From Methanolobus profundi (lineage in GTDB: Archaea; Halobacteriota; Methanosarcinia; Methanosarcinales; Methanosarcinaceae), in assembly GCF_900114835.1 (NCBI RefSeq), contig NZ_FOUJ01000006.1, forward strand, positions 62,001 to 126,000: a DNA stretch of 64,000 nucleotides, given 5' to 3'. The translations under genes were made by a program, and so were the position numbers. Numbering within the stretch: the stretch's first letter is position 1; each line of letters begins with the position of its first letter. Below the pieces are notes generated by a model, which saw nothing but the letters and a program-made list of their open reading frames with translations, was not told the DNA's origin and did no database searches. Below, in pieces: positions 4,358-21,844 of the stretch.

Positions 4358-5836
4358 TTATTCTTGTCCGAAGAAGGACCGTACCATCGGATGCATCTCC
4401 ATCATCTGCTCAGATGCTATATCCTCATACAAACGATATACAATACTTACCGTAAGCAGAAGACCAGTACCACCTGCACCTCCAAGGGTACCAAGCAGAC
4501 TTGCGACCAATGTAAGGAAACCAATGAAAGCACCACCAATTACGGTTACTTTCGGGATATACCTTAACATGACCTTCTCGATACTTCCGATATTCCTTCT
4601 GAAACCTGGGATCTGCATCCCTGAGTTAAATATCTTTTTAGCTGTTGGTTTTGCACCCATTCCCGTCGTCTCGATCCAGAACAGTGCAAACACAATACCT
4701 CCTACTATCAGGAACACAGCATCTGTTAATACGTGCAGACCGATCTGCCAGAAAGCAGGAACAGGTGCACCATAACTTGTGAATGATTCCCTTACAAGAG
4801 AAGGTATCCAGTCATATGGACTGTGGATTGGAGCCAGATAATACATAATACCATTGATAGGAGTTGAGCCACTGAACTCACCAAGGAATGTTATTCCTTT
4901 ACTGCTGAGCAGAAGACCTACCATCTGGATATTCGCCTGCAATGCCCTTACAAGGATCATTGGCAGAACTGAAGCATATATGAGTTTTACAGGGAACTTA
5001 CCCCTTGCACCCCTTACTGCACTATGTGCCAGAGGGATCTCGATACGTGTACTTTCTACATAGACTACAAGCAGGAAGATCACTATAGTACTTACCAATG
5101 CAAGTATTCCACCACTTATAAGCATGAACATTATACCATCGCCAGAGAATAGGAAATCTGCTTCCACATTCTGCACGATGTATAACCATTTAGGGAAGAA
5201 ACCTGTTGGAAGGCCACTTGAATCCGATGTCCAGTTGAAAAGACCGGTAACGATCTGCTGGGAAACACCAGCCACAATGAAAAGACCGACACCAGAACCG
5301 ATACCCCATTTGGAAACTACCTCATCCATGAAGAGTACCAGTACACCGCCTATGCATATCTGTATAAAGATGATAAATGTAACTACACCAAGGCCTACGC
5401 CTAAGGTTGATGCGAGAGCTGCATCCGGCTGGATATAACCACCAGCGATCTGTGGAAGAGCCTCAAGTACTATCATTACAAAGACCATGAACTTCTGTGC
5501 GCCCTGGAAGAACGCCTGGTCTGATGGGTTGGACATGTCGAGCTTAATGACATCAGCACCGACCAATAGCTGAAGGACAATGGATGCGGTAACAATAGGA
5601 CCGATACCCAGAAGCATCAGAGAACCCGAAGCTCCGGCAAAAAATGCTCTATAGGACTCGAACAGGTCGATCGAATCCGCTGACAATCCAAACAGCGGTA
5701 CATTAGCAAGTGCAAAATAGAGCACGAGAATTCCGAGAGTCCACATTAATTTGTTTTTAAAATGGACGTGCCCCTCTGGACTTGCAACCGCAGGCAATTT
5801 ATTAAAAATTGGTTCCAAACTATCCTTAAGACTCAT
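4358..5836 (-). CDS. secY: Protein translocase subunit SecY (Sec61 alpha)
   Basis: Central pore of the Sec translocon. About 492 aa with ten predicted membrane spans. The plug/TM2a region follows LANVPLFGL near the N-terminus. Cytosolic loops include ESTRIEIPLAHS, before TM6, and the Arg-rich loop GFRRNIG. The ATG at 5836 is chosen because GGGTGG lies 6 nt upstream of it on the minus strand; the open frame extends ten codons further but lacks such a site. A terminator-like hairpin and a TATA-like box lie between uL15 and this gene, so it may be partly uncoupled from the ribosomal genes. Confidence 0.95.
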   Translation of the reverse strand: MSLKDSLEPIFNKLPAVASPEGHVHFKNKLMWTLGILVLYFALANVPLFGLSADSIDLFESYRAFFAGASGSLMLLGIGPIVTASIVLQLLVGADVIKLDMSNPSDQAFFQGAQKFMVFVMIVLEALPQIAGGYIQPDAALASTLGVGLGVVTFIIFIQICIGGVLVLFMDEVVSKWGIGSGVGLFIVAGVSQQIVTGLFNWTSDSSGLPTGFFPKWLYIVQNVEADFLFSGDGIMFMLISGGILALVSTIVIFLLVVYVESTRIEIPLAHSAVRGARGKFPVKLIYASVLPMILVRALQANIQMVGLLLSSKGITFLGEFSGSTPINGIMYYLAPIHSPYDWIPSLVRESFTSYGAPVPAFWQIGLHVLTDAVFLIVGGIVFALFWIETTGMGAKPTAKKIFNSGMQIPGFRRNIGSIEKVMLRYIPKVTVIGGAFIGFLTLVASLLGTLGGAGGTGLLLTVSIVYRLYEDIASEQMMEMHPMVRSFFGQE

Positions 5837-5905
5837 TAATTCCACCCTTTGAATGGAAAGATCCATGCAATTATTAGGTAAAGTACACCTAAATAGATCT
5901 ACACA

Positions 5906-5916
5906 TTAATAAATAT
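5906..5916 (-). promoter_or_regulatory. Possible TATA box for secY-adk-DUF106-cmk-cbf5
   Basis: The minus strand reads ATATTTATTAA in the 132-nt spacer between uL15 and secY. A start site about 25 nt downstream (near 5885) would leave a leader of about 50 nt. No strong BRE is visible, so this is a moderate call. Confidence 0.35.
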
Positions 5917-5933
5917 GTATGCCTTATCCGCAT

Positions 5934-5972
5934 AGAAATAAAAATAAAATAGGTAATGCCAGATGGCATTAC
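5934..5972 (-). terminator. Hairpin plus T-rich terminator/attenuator after uL15
   Basis: Perfect 9-bp stem (GTAATGCCA / TGGCATTAC with a 2-nt TC spacer; 5953-5972) that overlaps the uL15 stop codon. On the minus strand it is followed by CTATTTTATTTTTATTTC. It looks like a terminator or attenuator dividing the ribosomal block from secY. Confidence 0.6.
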
Positions 5973-6412
5973 TCTTCTATCTCAGTGCAAGATCCACCTG
6001 CACCTTCGATCTTTTCCTTAGCACTTGCTGAAAATTCAGATGCTGTGATTGAAAGCTTCTTGGATACCTTTCCGGAACCAAGTACCTTGTCAATATCTAA
6101 TACAGCAAGATCGATGACATATGTGCCATCCTGAAGTTCTGCAAAACCGTCTTCAACAAGCTGATCAGCTAGTTCATCGAGTTCACCGACGTTCACAATT
6201 GAAGCATCGTTCAGAACCTTCAATGGGCGCTTGAATCCTCTCTGATGTCCACGGAAGTATCCGAGCTGAAGTGCACGTGTAGAATGGTGTTTGTTCTCAC
6301 CACATCTACCTCTTCCACCACGGTTACCTGCACCACGTCTGTTCTTGGTTGTTCCGCCACCACATGTGCGTGAACCTCTGAACTTCTTTGTGTTGGTTTT
6401 CTTAGATGTCAT
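5969..6412 (-). CDS. rpl15: Large-subunit ribosomal protein uL15
   Basis: 147 aa. Gly/Arg-rich N-terminal tail ([19 protein letters not shown]), which threads into 23S rRNA, followed by the globular L15e-like domain. The ATG at 6412 has GAGGTGA 5 nt upstream; an in-frame GTG three codons earlier would lack this spacing. Last gene before the terminator-like hairpin that separates it from secY. Confidence 0.95.
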
Positions 6413-6417
6413 CAGGA

Positions 6418-6879
6418 TCACCTCATCTTCTTCAACAATTTGTTGATGTCTTCACCATGGTTACCCAGTACACCGCCCTGCTGGACCGTTCTCTTCATAC
6501 CGGAGTGCCCCTTCCTTGGAGGGTGGAGCCTGAATACCGGCTTGAGCTTTGGTACATCTTTAAGGGTTGCGTTACCGTCACAGACAGCCTGTGCAAGAGC
6601 CTTGATGGAATCATAGTCTGTATTCTCAGCTACATATTCCTCGGTGAGCCTTACGTCACCCTCAAGTCTTCCACGGTTTGTGAGCATCTCTGCAAGTGTG
6701 TCAGCATCAATGACACCATAGGCCACATAGTCCTTTACTTTCTGGATCATTCCTGCATTGTGAGGATTGTCAGCAAGGAGAACACAGTGGTTCACTTTGT
6801 GCAGACGGACCATTTTAAGGGTATCCTTGATGGTACCCCTAACATTGACGTCTCCACGTACTCTGACCAAAGCGTACAT
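6418..6879 (-). CDS. rpl30: Large-subunit ribosomal protein uL30
   Basis: 153 aa, the long archaeal/eukaryotic form. The N-terminal ferredoxin-like domain begins [11 protein letters not shown] and contains [12 protein letters not shown]-terminal helical extension ends in the basic segment after [10 protein letters not shown]. It begins 1 nt after uS5 stops and ends 5 nt before uL15 starts, so it is tightly coupled. Confidence 0.95.
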
Positions 6880-6880
6880 T

Positions 6881-7516
6881 TTAAGCCTCCTTGTTCTCCA
6901 TGTTTGCAGGCATTCTTACAACACCTGAGTTCTCAAGTGCGTTGAATGTAGCCTTTGCGAAGTTCAAGGTTGTCCTTGTGGTACCTTCTGTCCTTGTCCA
7001 GACATCCTTGATACCTGCCTTCTCGAGTACTTTCCTTGCAGTGTCTCCAGCAGCAAGACCAAGTCCACGTGGTGCAGGTTTAAGCTCTACAAGAACACTG
7101 CCGGCCTTTCCACGTACCTGTGAAGGTACTGTGTGCTCAAGACCGCATGCGCATTCCCATGAACCGCAGCCACGTTTTACCTTGATTATGTTTATCTTTG
7201 CATTGCTGATAGCTTTCCTGATAGCTGGTCCGACCTGAACGTCCTTTGCCTGTCCAAGTCCAACGAAACCATTGCCGTTACCAACAATTACAGTTGCTCT
7301 GAACTTTACACGACGTCCGGAGTCAGTCATCCTCTGGACCATGTTGATATCAAGAACCTCATCCTCAAGATCAGGTAACAGGATATCGATTATTTGGTAT
7401 TCCCTTATTGGAAGACCTGACTCTATTACTTCATCCATGGAAGTGATCTGCCCTTCTTGAACGAGTGTTCCGAGTCTTGTCTGTGGAACCCATGCGTCTT
7501 CATATTGATATGCCAT
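6881..7516 (-). CDS. rps5: Small-subunit ribosomal protein uS5
   Basis: 211 aa. Double-stranded-RNA-binding-like N-domain ([21 protein letters not shown], about 66-86), then the S5 C-terminal domain with [12 protein letters not shown]. Archaeal N-terminal extension of about 50 residues. Acts at the decoding and mRNA-entry side of the 30S subunit. Separated from uL18 by 8 nt. Confidence 0.96.
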
Positions 7517-7524
7517 GTAATCAC

Positions 7525-8046
7525 CTAGTTGAACTCAGCAGAGATCTTTTCCTTAACTGCATCGAACAGTTCAGGCAGATTTGAGTCTTCCATGTACTCT
7601 GCTACGTGTTCTCCTCTTACTCTCTCATCTGAAGGAAGGACAGATGAGTCATGAGGAATCTCGAATCCTGCATCTACTATACCTTTAAGGGTTGCATATA
7701 CACGTGATCCGGATGATGATGCCTGGAGCCCTATGTCAAGAACGCCGTAATCATATCCTTTGCTCAGCGCCCTGTAACCGAATAACAGACCGGTAAGGTA
7801 GGCAGCTGTTGTGTTTCCTGTAGATGCGTTGTATCCGTACTTTGCAAGTTCTTTAGAAACTGCAGCTGAAAGGGTTACATCCCCTTCAGGTTTTGGAGCT
7901 ACAAGCTGGACCTGCATGTGCCTTGAGCTCTTGCGTACTACCACACGGTCTTCCTTTGAAAGGAGTAACCTCAATCTCTGGTGGTAATCAGTACGCCCTT
8001 CTCTTCGTCGTCTGAATGCGACTTTATATCTGGGTCCTGTTGCCAT
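7525..8046 (-). CDS. rpl18: Large-subunit ribosomal protein uL18
   Basis: 173 aa, archaeal L18/L5e type that binds 5S rRNA with uL5. N-terminus [18 protein letters not shown] and central [11 protein letters not shown] are typical. Longer than bacterial L18 through an acidic C-terminal helix. Two nt from the eL19 stop. Confidence 0.95.
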
Positions 8047-8048
8047 GA

Positions 8049-8507
8049 TTATTCCTCGTGCTTAATGAGTTTTTCTGACTCAAGGTGTGCCTTAAGGTGA
8101 GCTACACTACGGTATTCTCCACCCTTTGCCTTGCGGTAAACCTTACAATAGGTTGACCTGTCCAATGAGCCATCTGCACGCATTTGTTTAAGTTCCTTCC
8201 TCAGAGCACGGATCTTCTTCATCCACTGCTCTTTACGAGGATTACGTGCACCCTTCTTACCTTTTCTCTTACCATGTCCTTTACGGTGACCATACTTACG
8301 CTTGGCATCTCTTTCTCTTGCACGACCACGGCTTACACCCTTTACAGGGATGGCCTTGACGCTGCCAGCTTCTATGAGCTCACGGATGTCAGCTCTGGTG
8401 ATAGCCACTGCAATATCATCTGCTGCTTCAGGGTCGAGCCATACTCTGTGGACCCCACACCCTAAAACTGCTGCAGCAATTCTTTTCTGATTGGTCAGAT
8501 CGGTCAT
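8049..8507 (-). CDS. rpl19e: Large-subunit ribosomal protein eL19
   Basis: 152 aa archaeal/eukaryotic-specific protein. N-terminal globular part ([20 protein letters not shown]), then a very basic middle segment ([19 protein letters not shown]) and a long C-terminal helix. The ATG at 8507 is chosen because GGGGTGA ends 5 nt upstream; that same TGA is the stop codon of eL32. Confidence 0.95.
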
Positions 8508-8508
8508 C

Positions 8509-8898
8509 TTATTCACCCCTTGTTGGGTTGAGGACCTTTATTGAAAGCTCTGCAGCCTTTGCCTCTATGATAGCCTTCTTTCTTCCGCCAACCTTTGCAG
8601 CTATCCTGATAGCTTCAACTTCTGCATTGACAGTGTCAAGCTGTGAAATTGTGCATACAAGGACCTCTGCATAGCCGGATGGGTGTAAACCCTTTACAGC
8701 AGCAGGACTTCCATAGCCTACCTGAGCAACAGCACCCTTTGCCTTGATACCCTTGCGCTGCTTACCCTGAAGACCCCTTGGGCGCCTCCAGTTGTCGTCC
8801 AGACGCTTGTACTTGTGGCTCTCGGTCCTTTTGAAATCAGGTTTTTTGTGCTTCTGGATCTTCCTTACCTTAAAAAGGCGTTTAATTTTATCATCCAT
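8509..8898 (-). CDS. rpl32e: Large-subunit ribosomal protein eL32
   Basis: 129 aa, absent from bacteria. Conserved core [19 protein letters not shown] (about 25-43) and [12 protein letters not shown]. Its terminal TGA forms part of the ribosome binding site of eL19, so the two are probably translationally coupled. Confidence 0.95.
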
Positions 8899-8907
8899 TC
8901 AAATCAC

Positions 8908-9441
8908 CTACACTATCTTCTCCACTGTGTATATTCCGTCCTGGAATACACGGGGGTCGAATCTCTTGATCCTTGTTGCCTGCTCGATGTTAGCAGCTGT
9001 CTGTCCGACATCCTCTTTGTTGATACCGGTCACAACAACCTCATCACCAGAAGCCTTTACCTTTGACTCACCAAGGATGTTAGCAGATCTTGCCTTTTTC
9101 TCTCCAAGGAAATTGCCGATCATTAACTGCTTCCCTTCTACCTTGATCTGCATAGGGAAGTGAGAGTAAACGACCTTCATGCGATATTCGAATCCCTCTG
9201 TGACACCTTTGATCATATTAGAGATATGTGATGCAAAGGTTCCGACCATTGCTTTCTGGGTCTTCTTCATGACCGAGGAGTCCACGACCACTTCTGAATC
9301 CATTACCTCTATCTTGATACCAGGATACCAGAAGGTCCTCTCGTTCTTGCCTTTCTGACCAGACACTGTGAGAACCTGGCCCTGGAATGTGACGGTCACA
9401 CCTTCAGGGATAGGGATTATTTTCTTTATTTCTTTTGCCAT
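8908..9441 (-). CDS. rpl6: Large-subunit ribosomal protein uL6
   Basis: 177 aa with the two tandem L6 folds (about 1-85 and 86-175). Start [17 protein letters not shown]; second-domain entry [20 protein letters not shown]. It contacts the sarcin-ricin region at the factor-binding site. Gap of 15 nt to uS8. Confidence 0.96.
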
Positions 9442-9456
9442 GCGACATCACTTCCA

Positions 9457-9849
9457 TCAGTACACATATGCAATTAACTGTCCACCAACGTTATTCTCAC
9501 GAGCTTCGTACTGGGATATTACACCATTTGAGGTTGTAAGTATGAGTGTTCCGAAGTTCTTTGCAGGAAGGAACTGCTTTTCCCATCTTTCGAAGTCTGC
9601 AGCACCTACTGAATAACGTGGTTTGATAGCACCACATTTGTTGATCCTACCAATAAGTTCAACTTTATAGATTCCAGCCTTACCATCTTCAACAAACTCG
9701 AATTCACCGACATATCCACGGTCCTTCATGACCTTAAGTACGGTACCAATGAGTTTTGATGCTGGTCTTATGACACAGGAATCCTTACCAATTGCCTCTG
9801 CGTTCTTTATTGTAGACAGAGCGTCAGCAAGCGGATCTAATAATACCAT
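9457..9849 (-). CDS. rps8: Small-subunit ribosomal protein uS8
   Basis: 130 aa, central-domain primary binder of 16S rRNA. N-terminal [14 protein letters not shown] and C-terminal [11 protein letters not shown] are diagnostic. GAGGTG precedes the ATG. Ten nt from the uS14 stop. Confidence 0.96.
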
Positions 9850-17967: not shown

Positions 17968-18234
17968 TTACTTATCAGAAGTATCTGGAACCTTAGAAAT
18001 GCGCTTTACAACTTTCCTGACAGCCCTCCCCCTGAAATTAACGCCACCCACGACCAGGACACCAGGTTTGCGTTTAATAATCTCTGAATGGTCACTATTA
18101 AAAGTAGCTATTATACTTTTGTTTGCAACGACCTCAACACGCCCGCCTATACTTACAAGGACTTTAAGGATACCTTCTATCTGAGAGGGGGTTGCATTAT
18201 CTGCAACCCTTATCAGATGTGATTCAACAGGCAT
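17968..18234 (-). CDS. Small I9-like (ferredoxin-fold) protein, 88 aa
   Basis: Last gene of a four-gene cluster, overlapping the PASTA gene if the upstream GTG is used. The residue pattern fits a beta-alpha-beta-beta-alpha-beta peptidase-propeptide (inhibitor I9) fold: HLIRVA, a helix TPSQIEGILKVLVSIGG, strands RVEVVANKSIIATF, helix DHSEIIKRKPG, strand VLVVGGV. Free-standing I9 domains act as protease inhibitors or chaperones, but no subtilase is encoded nearby. The C-terminus is basic (RGRAVRKVVKRIS). The ATG at 18234 is preferred over a GTG three codons earlier. The fold is inferred from pattern only, and the function is unknown. Confidence 0.6.
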   Translation of the reverse strand: MPVESHLIRVADNATPSQIEGILKVLVSIGGRVEVVANKSIIATFNSDHSEIIKRKPGVLVVGGVNFRGRAVRKVVKRISKVPDTSDK

Positions 18235-18239
18235 AATGA

Positions 18240-19328
18240 TCACGTTCTGGAAATGGACTTTCTGATAGGAGACAGAACGGATGTCTGTTTGGCAGCAGAT
18301 ATTTTAGAAATGGTCTTTGCGCCATTATTATTAAGTGAAGCATTGACCACGCCCCCTCTTCCAGAGACAGCTGCAAATTCTACTTTTTCACTTGCAACTA
18401 TAACATCGATAGAAGCACCGATATCAGCATAATCCCCGGCAACTACAGACTGACCTATGACCGTGCCAGCCTTCAAAGCATCTGCCTGCTCTGTTACCCT
18501 CCCAATAGTAAGCTTACTTTTTGCCAATGCACTCCTCGCAGAGACAAGTGGCATACCTACAAGATCAGGGACCGGAACTGAAGTTATCTTTGATATCACC
18601 AGATCCACGGCATCGCCTGGCCTTGCAACAGAACTTCCCGATGGGATCTGTGAAAGCACAGTACCCTGTATCAAATTACTTTCCTTCTCAATAACCTCAC
18701 CCTTTGCAAATCCGGCATCCTTTATTATAGATACTGCCGAGTCCATATCAAGTCCCACAACATCCGGGACATCAATAAGGTCAGTGAGAACTGATCCCTT
18801 TGACGAGGAACTGATGGTAAACTCTACCTCGCTCAAATTGGCAGCAGGGATCACATCATCTGCCTTAGGTAACTGAAAGCGCAGTTCATTGTCCCGGACA
18901 GCAAGGTTCGTCCTGAGCTTTATATTCATTGAACTGATACTGTAATCCACATTTGATGAAGTGGAGTTCATGGCGCCATCCATCTCTTCAAGAGAATCAC
19001 GAAATGCCATTACAAGATTGGACGACGTGAGTTCCGGCCTTGTACGTGAAAGCTGTTCCAACTGCTTTTCAACTTCAGCTTTCTCCCTTAGTATTTCCTG
19101 CACCCTGTTGTCAAGGATAGCATAATCCTGCTTCAAAGTAAGGTTCTCACTTTTCAATAATTCCAATGACCCTTCTTTTGATATGAGCTCCTTTTGGATA
19201 GATTCATATGTGGATTCCACATCTTCAATTGCTCTCTGAACCAGAGTATAGCTCTGTTTCTTAGATGCTGCTGTTGTTGACCGGTTCAAACGATCAACAT
19301 TCTTCCTGAGTTCTGTAATATCGGCCAT
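18240..19328 (-). CDS. Cytoplasmic coiled-coil protein with two PASTA domains
   Basis: 362 aa. Residues about 30-95 are a heptad-rich coiled coil. About 98-175 is an undefined segment with strand-like VDYSISSMNIKLRTNLAV. Two PASTA repeats follow: VPDVVGLDMDSAVSIIKDAG (about 187-246) and VPVPDLVGMPLVSARSALAK (about 251-312). A Ser/Lys-rich tail ends the protein. There is no signal peptide or membrane span, whereas bacterial PASTA repeats normally sit outside the cell on penicillin-binding proteins or Ser/Thr kinases. Methanogens of this group have no peptidoglycan, so another ligand is likely. It lies 16 nt after the 135-aa gene and overlaps the I9-like frame. Confidence 0.8.
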   Translation of the reverse strand: MADITELRKNVDRLNRSTTAASKKQSYTLVQRAIEDVESTYESIQKELISKEGSLELLKSENLTLKQDYAILDNRVQEILREKAEVEKQLEQLSRTRPELTSSNLVMAFRDSLEEMDGAMNSTSSNVDYSISSMNIKLRTNLAVRDNELRFQLPKADDVIPAANLSEVEFTISSSSKGSVLTDLIDVPDVVGLDMDSAVSIIKDAGFAKGEVIEKESNLIQGTVLSQIPSGSSVARPGDAVDLVISKITSVPVPDLVGMPLVSARSALAKSKLTIGRVTEQADALKAGTVIGQSVVAGDYADIGASIDVIVASEKVEFAAVSGRGGVVNASLNNNGAKTISKISAAKQTSVLSPIRKSISRT

Positions 19329-19344
19329 CCCCTTCCCCCAATGA

Positions 19345-19752
19345 TCATTCTTCCACTACTTTAGAAGAAGAAGGAACCGACACGATCCTGGCCTTGAGAA
19401 CACTTGAACCCTTTACATCGTAAGAATTAAGAGAATTATATGAAGCGTTCAGTGGTGCTGCACTAAGAACACGCTTATATCCCCTTATACGGTTCTTTGA
19501 ATCCCTTTCTTCCTCATACTTCATGGACAGGGCCATCTTAAGCTCAATATCAACTTCTGGTATATGATACCATGTCGCTTCAATATTATAGTCCTTAAGT
19601 GCCTCATCGCCCTCAAGCTCTATCTGAGTATCAATGGAATTGCGGTCGAGCGTTTTCTGAGTCTCTGCAATAGATTTCCCCATCTCGCTCAATATTGTAG
19701 AGAGAGGACTGACAAGTACCTCTTCAATATTCACGTTGCTACTGGATGGCAA
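19345..19752 (-). CDS. Unknown protein, short paralogue of the 202-aa gene (135 aa)
   Basis: Not recognised as a named family. It shares a layout with the gene at 19824-20432: an N-terminal helix (PLSTILSEMGKSIAETQKTL followed by DRNSI), a strand IPEVDIELKMALSMKYEEE near 63-82, and a C-terminal strand region ending GSSVLKARIVSVPSSSKVVEE. No signal peptide, membrane span or cysteine. It is compact and mostly beta after the first helix. Gap of 71 nt from the upstream paralogue and 16 nt to the PASTA gene. Confidence 0.75.
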   Translation of the reverse strand: MPSSSNVNIEEVLVSPLSTILSEMGKSIAETQKTLDRNSIDTQIELEGDEALKDYNIEATWYHIPEVDIELKMALSMKYEEERDSKNRIRGYKRVLSAAPLNASYNSLNSYDVKGSSVLKARIVSVPSSSKVVEE

Positions 19753-19823
19753 TATGCTACCTCCTTCAATGGTCGTAAAAATAAATTATCAACGCAGCAA
19801 TTCCTGCATTGATATTACCTTAA

Positions 19824-20432
19824 TTACTCAGCTGCCTCTTTCACGCGGACTGTAGGAACAGCACGTTCTGGAGGTGGTACTGGCTTGAGGGTAGTTCTCA
19901 GAAGACTCGTACCCTGTTCATTGAAGGTGTATTTGGACTTGTAGGTAGCATCATATGTCGATGTATATGCAACATTGGTAGTGTTCTCTGCACTTACCTT
20001 GGCCTTTCCAAAGAGGAGACCTGCAAGACCACTTGACTGGTAACTACCTTTTATCTTCGATTCGTTTGTGAACTTGAATTCCCTGCCATATTTCTTTTCT
20101 GTAGAGAATTCCCTCTTCATCGAGATGGTCATCTTTACTTCGATAATGGATTCAGTGAATTCATAGAAACGTGGTTCTAAGCCATAGGTCAGCAACGACA
20201 TTGGCTCATCGTTCGTTACAACATCTGTTGCTGTAACGTTACCATCCTCATCCACGGTTTCTTCTATATAGAGAATTACACTCCCTACATCCAGTTCTGT
20301 CTCTGCAAGGGCCTGTGCTACATTGATAGAGTTCATATCAAGAGCTGTCTGCCCCTCTGCGATGGCAAAGGCCATCTCTTTTATCATATCTCCGAATGGA
20401 ACATCTAATAATCTTTGTCCAACAGATACCAT
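19824..20432 (-). CDS. Unknown protein, first gene of the PASTA cluster (202 aa)
   Basis: Not recognised as a named family. The N-terminal amphipathic helix PFGDMIKEMAFAIAEGQTAL plus DMNSI matches the start of the 135-aa paralogue. FTESIIEVKMTISMKREF (about 91-108) matches its central strand. The C-terminus is beta-rich and repetitive (TSTYDATYKSKYTFNEQGTSLL), ending in a Pro-rich then acidic tail. Predicted soluble and cytoplasmic. GGGAGG 6 nt before the ATG and a TATA box about 40 nt upstream make it the head of the operon. The two paralogues probably form a hetero- or homo-oligomer, which is inference. Confidence 0.78.
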   Translation of the reverse strand: MVSVGQRLLDVPFGDMIKEMAFAIAEGQTALDMNSINVAQALAETELDVGSVILYIEETVDEDGNVTATDVVTNDEPMSLLTYGLEPRFYEFTESIIEVKMTISMKREFSTEKKYGREFKFTNESKIKGSYQSSGLAGLLFGKAKVSAENTTNVAYTSTYDATYKSKYTFNEQGTSLLRTTLKPVPPPERAVPTVRVKEAAE

Positions 20433-20470
20433 GTTAAACCTCCCACATTATGGTTACTATAAATATAGGT

Positions 20471-20490
20471 CGATATAAGTTAAAGGCTTT
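20471..20490 (-). promoter_or_regulatory. BRE/TATA promoter of the PASTA cluster
   Basis: The minus strand reads AAAGCCTTTAACTTATATCG. A start near 20456 would leave about 24 nt of leader containing GGGAGG. A second AT box (CTATATTTATA) lies closer to the gene but would leave almost no leader. Confidence 0.45.
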
Positions 20491-20614
20491 ACTAAAAATA
20501 AAGTACCAAATATAAAAATAAGAGTGAATATATTAGTGCCATCAAAATAGTACCAGCATTACCGAAAAATCATATTCAAATGAGCATTGAATATATTGAA
20601 AATAAGGCACCATC

Positions 20615-20662
20615 TATACTAAAAAATAGAAAGAGAGAAAGAATACTTTATTCTCTCTTACT
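20615..20662 (-). terminator. Terminator-like imperfect hairpin after the vWA gene
   Basis: Leftward from the vWA stop codon, an imperfect AGAGAGAAT/ATTCTTTCTCTCT stem is followed by CTATTTTTTAG. Position and T-run fit termination of the vWA gene. Confidence 0.4.
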
Positions 20663-21844
20663 GAATACAAAAGCCAGTCCTACAATTGCGATCATTGGAA
20701 TCGCTACTGTGGGGAATTCTGGAATTTCCTCACTTGGTGGAATATTTTCGCCGACAGAAATGTATGCCTGAGGAATACCTACAGATCCTGCATCATTTCC
20801 TTCACTGTCATCATAATTGACCACTGCATCAGGAACAACATCAACAGGAAGCCTGTTTCCAATCTGATCACACTTTGCTTCGAAGGTCAAAGTGACTGTT
20901 TCATCAGCAGACATATCAGGATCCTTATCACTTAACTCTCCAATATTGAGCCATGTAATTGTTGTAGTCCCAGTGATCGGATCCTCATATATGCTATCAG
21001 GAATAACATTGAATGATCCTTCATCTACAATATAAGCTTGAGTTATTTCAATGACATCTACATTATAAGGAATCGTAGAAGCAGCCACCTCAGAGTATAT
21101 ATCCTGATAAATGGCATCAAGGTTAGCTGCAGTTGGAGCTGGGTAGTAAGCTCCTCCTGTCGTAGTAGCCATATCCATTAAGCCTGCTGTGTCAACAGAT
21201 GAACCCAGCCCTATACTATAAATCGTGTATCCTGCGGTTGCAGCTGCTACAGCAGTATCGTGGCTATAGGATCCTGATCCATCACTAAGGAAAATAATTA
21301 TCTCTGCAGATGATCCGGACCTTGCATTTGCATTTAAAAGATTTATTGACTCTGTCAGTCCTACATTGAGATTTGTGCCTCCACTATGATCAACGGCATC
21401 TATTCTTGTCTTGAGATATGCAAAATCATTGGTCAATGCTTCTGAAAAATCAATGTCACTATCCCAACTTACAACACCTGCTGTGTCCTTAGTTGAATCC
21501 ATCTTATCAAGGAAAGCTTTTGCAGCATCCAATCTAAGGTTGTTAGGGTCACCATAAGAATAACCCATACTTCCAGAACTGTCTATTGCAAATATAACAT
21601 CCATTGGTACAGACGTTGTAGTAGCACTACCTGCACCTGTTACCTCAATAGTCACTGTAGTAATTTCATTACTGCCACTTCCAGCAATGTTGATACTTGT
21701 TGGTGATGCAGTCTTTGTAACAGTAGGTTCTGCAATAACAGCACTTGCGCTTACCACCCCAACCATAGAGATAGTAACGATACATAAAATAGCTATCAAG
21801 AACATATCTTTCGACAGCTTATTAAATTTGCTTATTTCAATCAT
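20648..21844 (-). CDS. Secreted von Willebrand factor A protein with PEF-CTERM tail
   Basis: 398 aa. N-terminal signal/TM segment (MFLIAILCIVTISMVGVVSASA, about 14-35). vWA domain about 75-260, with an intact MIDAS start (FAIDSSGSM) plus the conserved Thr/Asp loops (SGGTNLNVGL and FLSDGSGS). A DUF11-like beta region follows. The C-terminus EIPEFPTVAIPMIAIVGLAF plus a basic end is a PEF-CTERM sorting signal, processed by an archaeosortase in Methanosarcinales; that enzyme is not in this window. Likely a surface-anchored, metal-dependent adhesion or binding protein. Stands alone, with GGAG before the ATG. Confidence 0.85.
   Translation of the reverse strand: MIEISKFNKLSKDMFLIAILCIVTISMVGVVSASAVIAEPTVTKTASPTSINIAGSGSNEITTVTIEVTGAGSATTTSVPMDVIFAIDSSGSMGYSYGDPNNLRLDAAKAFLDKMDSTKDTAGVVSWDSDIDFSEALTNDFAYLKTRIDAVDHSGGTNLNVGLTESINLLNANARSGSSAEIIIFLSDGSGSYSHDTAVAAATAGYTIYSIGLGSSVDTAGLMDMATTTGGAYYPAPTAANLDAIYQDIYSEVAASTIPYNVDVIEITQAYIVDEGSFNVIPDSIYEDPITGTTTITWLNIGELSDKDPDMSADETVTLTFEAKCDQIGNRLPVDVVPDAVVNYDDSEGNDAGSVGIPQAYISVGENIPPSEEIPEFPTVAIPMIAIVGLAFVFSKRE

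Follow-up and report, generated by a model that had tools for sequence, protein, structure and literature searches.

A conserved four-gene cluster of Halobacteriota with optional PASTA repeats and a profile-level relationship to DUF2589 cassettes

Results

Layout of the locus

The window, that is the whole stretch of DNA analysed here, comprises 64,000 nucleotides of Methanolobus profundi (contig NZ_FOUJ01000006.1, positions 62,001 to 126,000 of the forward strand). At its positions 17968-20432, the minus strand carries four open reading frames of 202, 135, 362 and 91 aa, which we call A, B, C and D in their order of reading. A and B are 71 nt apart, B and C 16 nt, and C and D about 5 nt, as expected from the initial annotation, which had described one tight operon of four genes. 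The features of the locus are the following.

20437..20495, minus strand: Shine-Dalgarno sequence GGGAGG and conserved AT-rich, TATA-like putative promoter region upstream of A (alignment of nine relatives)
19824..20432, minus strand: gene A, 202 aa, with a long helix, a small beta hairpin and long beta strands; remote relative of the long type of DUF2589
20301..20396, minus strand: predicted long N-terminal helix of A, aa 13-44, with the invariant D32/N34/S35 region (AlphaFold2 pLDDT about 80-88; conservation)
20007..20030, minus strand: hydrophobic turn GLAGLLFG of A, aa 135-142, between two predicted long strands (alignments; a low-confidence part of the model)
19345..19752, minus strand: gene B, 135 aa, begins with TTG; short paralogue of A; the prediction gives a long helix and three strands
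18240..19328, minus strand: gene C, 362 aa, with a coiled coil, a module apparently related to A, B and the DUF2589 cassettes, two PASTA repeats and a basic tail
18789..19031, minus strand: middle module of C, aa about 100-180, possible counterpart of the third gene of DUF2589 cassettes (hhalign 69.7%, E 4e-5; alignment)
18588..18773, minus strand: PASTA repeat 1 of C
18393..18578, minus strand: PASTA repeat 2 of C
17968..18234, minus strand: gene D, about 88 aa from ATG, small, with a basic C-terminus; GTG at 18243 is an alternative start

A strong Shine-Dalgarno sequence precedes both A and B, and the TTG start of B is backed by GGAGGT just upstream and by an ATG at the equivalent site in the relative L002 (L and G numbers are our own handles). 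Judged from its relatives, translation of D probably begins with the ATG at 18234, which gives 88 aa. The initial annotation had also proposed that the cluster has its own promoter; the TATA-like AT-rich blocks and the purine-rich ribosome-binding site upstream of A do recur in relatives, whereas the cluster-specific promoter itself is plausible and no more. The GC content of the cluster (0.434) is close to that of the window (0.436). Comparison with two Methanolobus-type relatives gives A and B a dN/dS of 0.03-0.04, and C and D one of 0.14-0.17; these low values indicate that the four genes are real and constrained, A and B being under very strong purifying selection. None of the four proteins has a signal-peptide-like N-terminus, and none has a hydrophobic segment or membrane helix, the highest 19-residue Kyte-Doolittle mean being 1.39. 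Just upstream of A lies a gene for a surface VWA-domain protein (20648-21844, minus strand) with a C-terminal IPEFPTVAIPM...KRE segment, which we take to resemble a PEF-CTERM sorting signal. This gene was considered as a fifth member of the cluster and dropped, as L031 lacks it at this position.

Distribution and gene order

In our sample of the order Methanosarcinales, A had a match in 31 of 120 genomes and B in 30 of 120; two of the 31 matches of A are short fragments (G057 and G073) and one is cut by a contig end (G113). Every intact and long enough Methanosarcinales locus that we read has the order A-B-C-D, and such loci occur in Methanolobus, Methanosarcina, ANME-2, GoM-Arc1, Argoarchaeum and others. 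The genes are not scattered, and the synteny across genera that the initial annotation had named as support for a four-gene system is present and extends across families. The flanks are family-specific but constant within Methanosarcinaceae, in which the ribosomal protein L3 operon adjoins the cluster; in some genomes, nothing but decayed remnants is left beside rpl3 (G057, in L097). Several relatives lack the cluster or have it in decayed form, so it can be lost and is dispensable.

A profile search with B gave strong matches in seven further families of the phylum Halobacteriota. The clusters of L088-L095 contain A, B and C; some have an additional A-like gene (A'), and in some a D can be recognised. 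Haloarchaea and other Halobacteriota carry A-B-C with a variable D. By tblastn, a bacterial locus was found on a plasmid of Sphaerotilus sulfidivorans (E 4e-18), with A, A' and three more genes for small or coiled-coil proteins. Only A and A' are clearly homologous in this locus; the other three genes, which gave no significant match to B, C or D, correspond by position and pattern. The search of bacteria covered plasmid and phage records. No relatives of A were found in viral contigs and phage records, and a phage tail- or injection-type system, which we had considered, was rejected on this ground and for the lack of any PHROGs match better than E 0.025.

The PASTA arrays of C, and gene D

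C carries two PASTA repeats (PF03793, E 2.7e-23; 82.1 bits against a cut-off of 23.2) behind a coiled coil, with neither signal peptide nor hydrophobic segment, so that the initial annotation was right to describe a coiled-coil PASTA protein without an export signal; the membrane anchor and export features of PASTA sensor proteins were not found in C. Among its relatives, C varies in length. It has no PASTA copy in L092, where it is made of coiled coil and module, one copy in haloarchaea, L088 and L090, two in the window and in ANME-2, three in L046 and L089, and four in L038 and L040. L108 encodes a giant C paralogue (5053-9024, minus strand). Its 1324 aa hold a repeated coiled coil, the middle module and an array of about 12 PASTA copies, and it ends in RLTLRRLARLRR; a decayed B copy adjoins its gene (9225-9494), and a second decayed B is present in L113 (707-973). 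As C relatives have none to four copies, and one giant paralogue about 12, PASTA is an accessory of C and not the core of the system; it does not define the cluster, which the initial annotation had named after it. Many C relatives, in ANME-2, other Methanosarcinales and haloarchaea, end in HHH_5/DUF4332 (E 1e-15 to 1e-5). Across the 247 genomes searched, the cluster holds most of the strong PASTA matches, and most of the remaining ones belong to a separate Methanosarcina family of proteins about 180 aa long. Our literature search found no mention of PASTA domains together with ANME or haloarchaea.

D has a net charge of +7 and a conserved basic C-terminal end. By eye, its strand/helix order had been likened to that of the Inhibitor_I9 propeptide, yet D has no match to Inhibitor_I9 (PF05922) in Pfam or in a PDB sequence search at E up to 10, which leaves this proposal of the initial annotation without profile support. 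The PDB sequence search with the D profile gave no significant match, and a search for I9 in haloarchaea gave partial matches in large proteins only.

Paralogy and predicted structure of A and B

That the two uncharacterized proteins are paralogous, as first proposed, is borne out by hhalign, which aligns A with B at 98.1%, and at 99.5% (E 1e-22) when diverse members are included. In a maximum-likelihood tree they form separate clades (support 100/100) that each span distant families, which places the A/B duplication before these lineages; judged from the tree, the A-B pair is old and co-inherited. Of the two Sphaerotilus copies, A is placed with haloarchaeal-type A and the second one with A'; some branches of the tree are long, so that its details are unsure.

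AlphaFold2 prediction, run on the alignment without the plasmid rows, gave models of moderate confidence (pLDDT 64 for A and 69.5 for B). In A, the helix and the beta core are reasonably confident (pLDDT about 75-88 to residue 100), and residues 89-121 and 154-185 are each modelled as a very long strand; the long hairpin is uncertain, and its turn is the least confident part (pLDDT 33-54). Foldseek comparison of A and B with the PDB gave no significant match (best E 0.39), nor did a PDB sequence search with the A profile. Among viral models, Foldseek matched A to one unnamed 178-aa protein (E 4.4e-3, prob 0.99).

Relation to DUF2589

Scans against Pfam, NCBIfam, PHROGs and PADLOC gave no match for A, B and D, and PASTA and a coiled coil for C. 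Since A and B match no Pfam, NCBIfam or PHROGs family, their link to DUF2589 (PF11655) rests on profile-profile comparison. The A profile aligns with the long form of DUF2589 at 94.8% (E 5e-8) and 95.4% (E 2e-8), and the match runs collinearly through about 160 columns. As a control, the columns of the same alignment were shuffled ten times, which gave E 0.03-0.95. At the level of profiles, these values show A to be a remote homologue of DUF2589. B alone gave no significant match to DUF2589, and would be related to it because it is paralogous with A. The hairpin is near-superimposable between the A of L092 (KAKAGWGPFSASVNASYS) and a Vibrio DUF2589 protein (NAKVGWGPLSVTAKVSGS), and a turn of the GWGWG/GFGLW type occupies the position of GLAGLLFG both in A relatives and in DUF2589. 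The Pfam model PF11655 itself gave no match up to E 10 to A, B or their relatives in ANME-2, GoM-Arc1 and Sphaerotilus, and no match anywhere in the genome from which the window comes. Among the matches listed, no genome carries both DUF2589 and A/B, but as only about one such genome would be expected by chance, this absence is uninformative.

Searching the phylum with PF11655 revealed tandem long and short copies, followed in several genomes by a third small gene, and the A-B-C layout is the same, with long and short tandem paralogues and a third gene. The alignment of the C module with the third cassette gene extends over 52 columns, and B aligns with the C module at 61.5% (E 8e-5), or at 27% with a different B alignment; both comparisons are suggestive of a relationship. 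Given A's profile match, B's kinship through A and the pairing of the C module with the third cassette gene, the proteins that the initial annotation called unknown do have relatives; DUF2589 itself has no function assigned, and no family of known function was matched. Our literature search returned a single mention of DUF2589, as the related genes AF0414-AF0417 of Archaeoglobus fulgidus, which are up-regulated on lactate with no function given (PMC3949148).

Several features were noted around DUF2589 in bacteria. In two cassettes (L098:10814-11416 and L115:3215-4012, both plus strand), an N-acetylmuramidase gene (PF11860) comes next on the same strand, hinting at a link of bacterial DUF2589 to peptidoglycan or lysis. 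L115 (MT839761.1) is an unverified 4 kb record from human faeces, labelled 'Bacteriophage sp.', and this label may be wrong. On a Vibrio plasmid (L107:17-6105, plus strand), genes for a peptidase-type ABC exporter and an HlyD-family adaptor precede the DUF2589 pair, and a 91-aa gene that accompanies the pair recurs beside DUF2589 in L098 and L099.

Discussion

In this study, we have explored a four-gene cluster that keeps its order across genera of Methanosarcinales and that reaches, with a variable D, into other Halobacteriota. To the reading that A-D make up one cytoplasmic multi-subunit assembly with C as its scaffold, representing a remote branch of the DUF2589-type cassettes, we give about even credence. 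A, B and the central portion of C would be related modules, in each of which a beta meander follows a long helix; they are predicted to pack via these helices and sheets. C would serve as the scaffold, its N-terminal coiled coil bundling C chains and its module docking A and B. The C-terminal PASTA array, joined in many relatives by a helix-hairpin-helix/DUF4332 domain, could act as an extensible spacer or binding arm, and D may bind the finished complex or the arm of C. Going further, one could imagine a new class of archaeal intracellular scaffold (fibre, tube or shell-like), whose building blocks would be DUF2589-type modules on a coiled-coil/PASTA backbone with its length tuned by repeat number, and which would be shared across Halobacteriota as a whole cassette with a bacterial offshoot; this larger proposal is tentative, and we consider it doubtful at present.

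Other explanations have to be weighed against this. One possible mechanism would be an action on membranes, in which the beta hairpin of A inserts its hydrophobic turn as part of a pore-like ring of subunits, and B and C act as its chaperone or regulator. The two very long strands around a hydrophobic turn that is conserved in DUF2589 (GWGWG) would fit such a role, as would the predominance of beta-pore proteins among the non-significant PDB matches of A and the muramidase genes that follow two bacterial DUF2589 cassettes (PF11860, E about 1e-66 and 1e-69). However, those structural matches, at E 0.39 or worse and TM-scores of at most about 0.18, probably echo any long hairpin, the turn is where the A model is least confident, A-D have no export signal, and the muramidase genes are neighbours of DUF2589 in bacteria and not of the A-D cluster; we therefore regard this explanation as unlikely. 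It is also unlikely, in our view, that the cluster encodes a nucleic-acid complex in which the HHH/DUF4332 end or basic tail of C, together with the basic D, tethers A and B to DNA or RNA. The HHH_5/DUF4332 ends of C in ANME-2, other Methanosarcinales and haloarchaea speak for it, and C proteins without HHH have a basic tail instead (RKSISRT in that of the window, RLTLRRLARLRR in that of L108). D, with a net charge of +7, likewise has a conserved basic end. Against it, the C of the window and the Methanosarcina C that we examined have no HHH, no nucleic-acid enzyme is found among the constant neighbours, and we know of no DNA binding by DUF4332.

The helix and beta-meander unit could alternatively be akin to Trypco2, a domain that predicted conflict systems combine with proteases (PMC7159879), in which case the cluster would sense or scaffold a response to stress or phage. 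Trypco2 is the best, though weak, Pfam match of the third gene in one DUF2589 cassette (E 0.64), and a Methanosarcina Trypco2 protein (L100:1216-3184, minus strand), whose gene adjoins one for a subtilisin-TPR protein, can be read as a tandem of two helix-beta units. Nevertheless, the comparison of one Trypco2 protein with A, B, the C module and DUF2589 by hhalign was not significant (E 0.001-0.3), protease, ATPase and effector are absent from the cluster, and PADLOC gave no meaningful match other than the PASTA repeats, which makes a conflict or sensor function quite improbable. Finally, it could be argued that PASTA is central, C binding incoming cell-wall fragments, for instance those of neighbouring bacteria, and the other genes signalling. 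The two repeats are bona fide and well over the Pfam cut-off, and bacterial PASTA binds peptidoglycan. The host archaeon, however, makes no peptidoglycan itself, L092 keeps the A-B-C core with a PASTA-free C, and the copy number drifts freely, so that we see very little chance for this explanation.

The kinship with DUF2589 matters in both directions. The archaeal four-gene cluster and DUF2589, formerly separate unknowns, are joined as one multi-gene cassette superfamily, and a structure or phenotype obtained from either would inform the other. Archaea that lack peptidoglycan keep and even enlarge PASTA arrays in proteins without an export signal, and the wall-binding role of PASTA becomes testable against a structural or spacer role. 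The presence of the cluster in cultured relatives, Methanolobus and Methanosarcina, makes deletion and purification feasible.

There are clear similarities and differences between the A-D cluster and the systems already described. Trypco2 (PF19631) is likewise a small unit of a helix followed by strands, with a similar strand pattern, but its profile similarity is not significant and its gene neighbours are others. With PASTA kinases and penicillin-binding proteins, C shares true PASTA repeats; unlike them, it has no kinase domain, transpeptidase domain or membrane anchor, is predicted to be cytoplasmic in a host without peptidoglycan, and treats its PASTA part as optional. With the DUF2589 cassettes of Archaea and Bacteria, the cluster has in common the long and short tandem paralogues, the collinear profile match of A to the long form and the hairpin motif, and perhaps also a third gene with a helix and beta strands. 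It differs from them in that the Pfam model misses A and B, in the coiled coil of C, to which PASTA and/or HHH are usually added, and in D, which is an extra gene.
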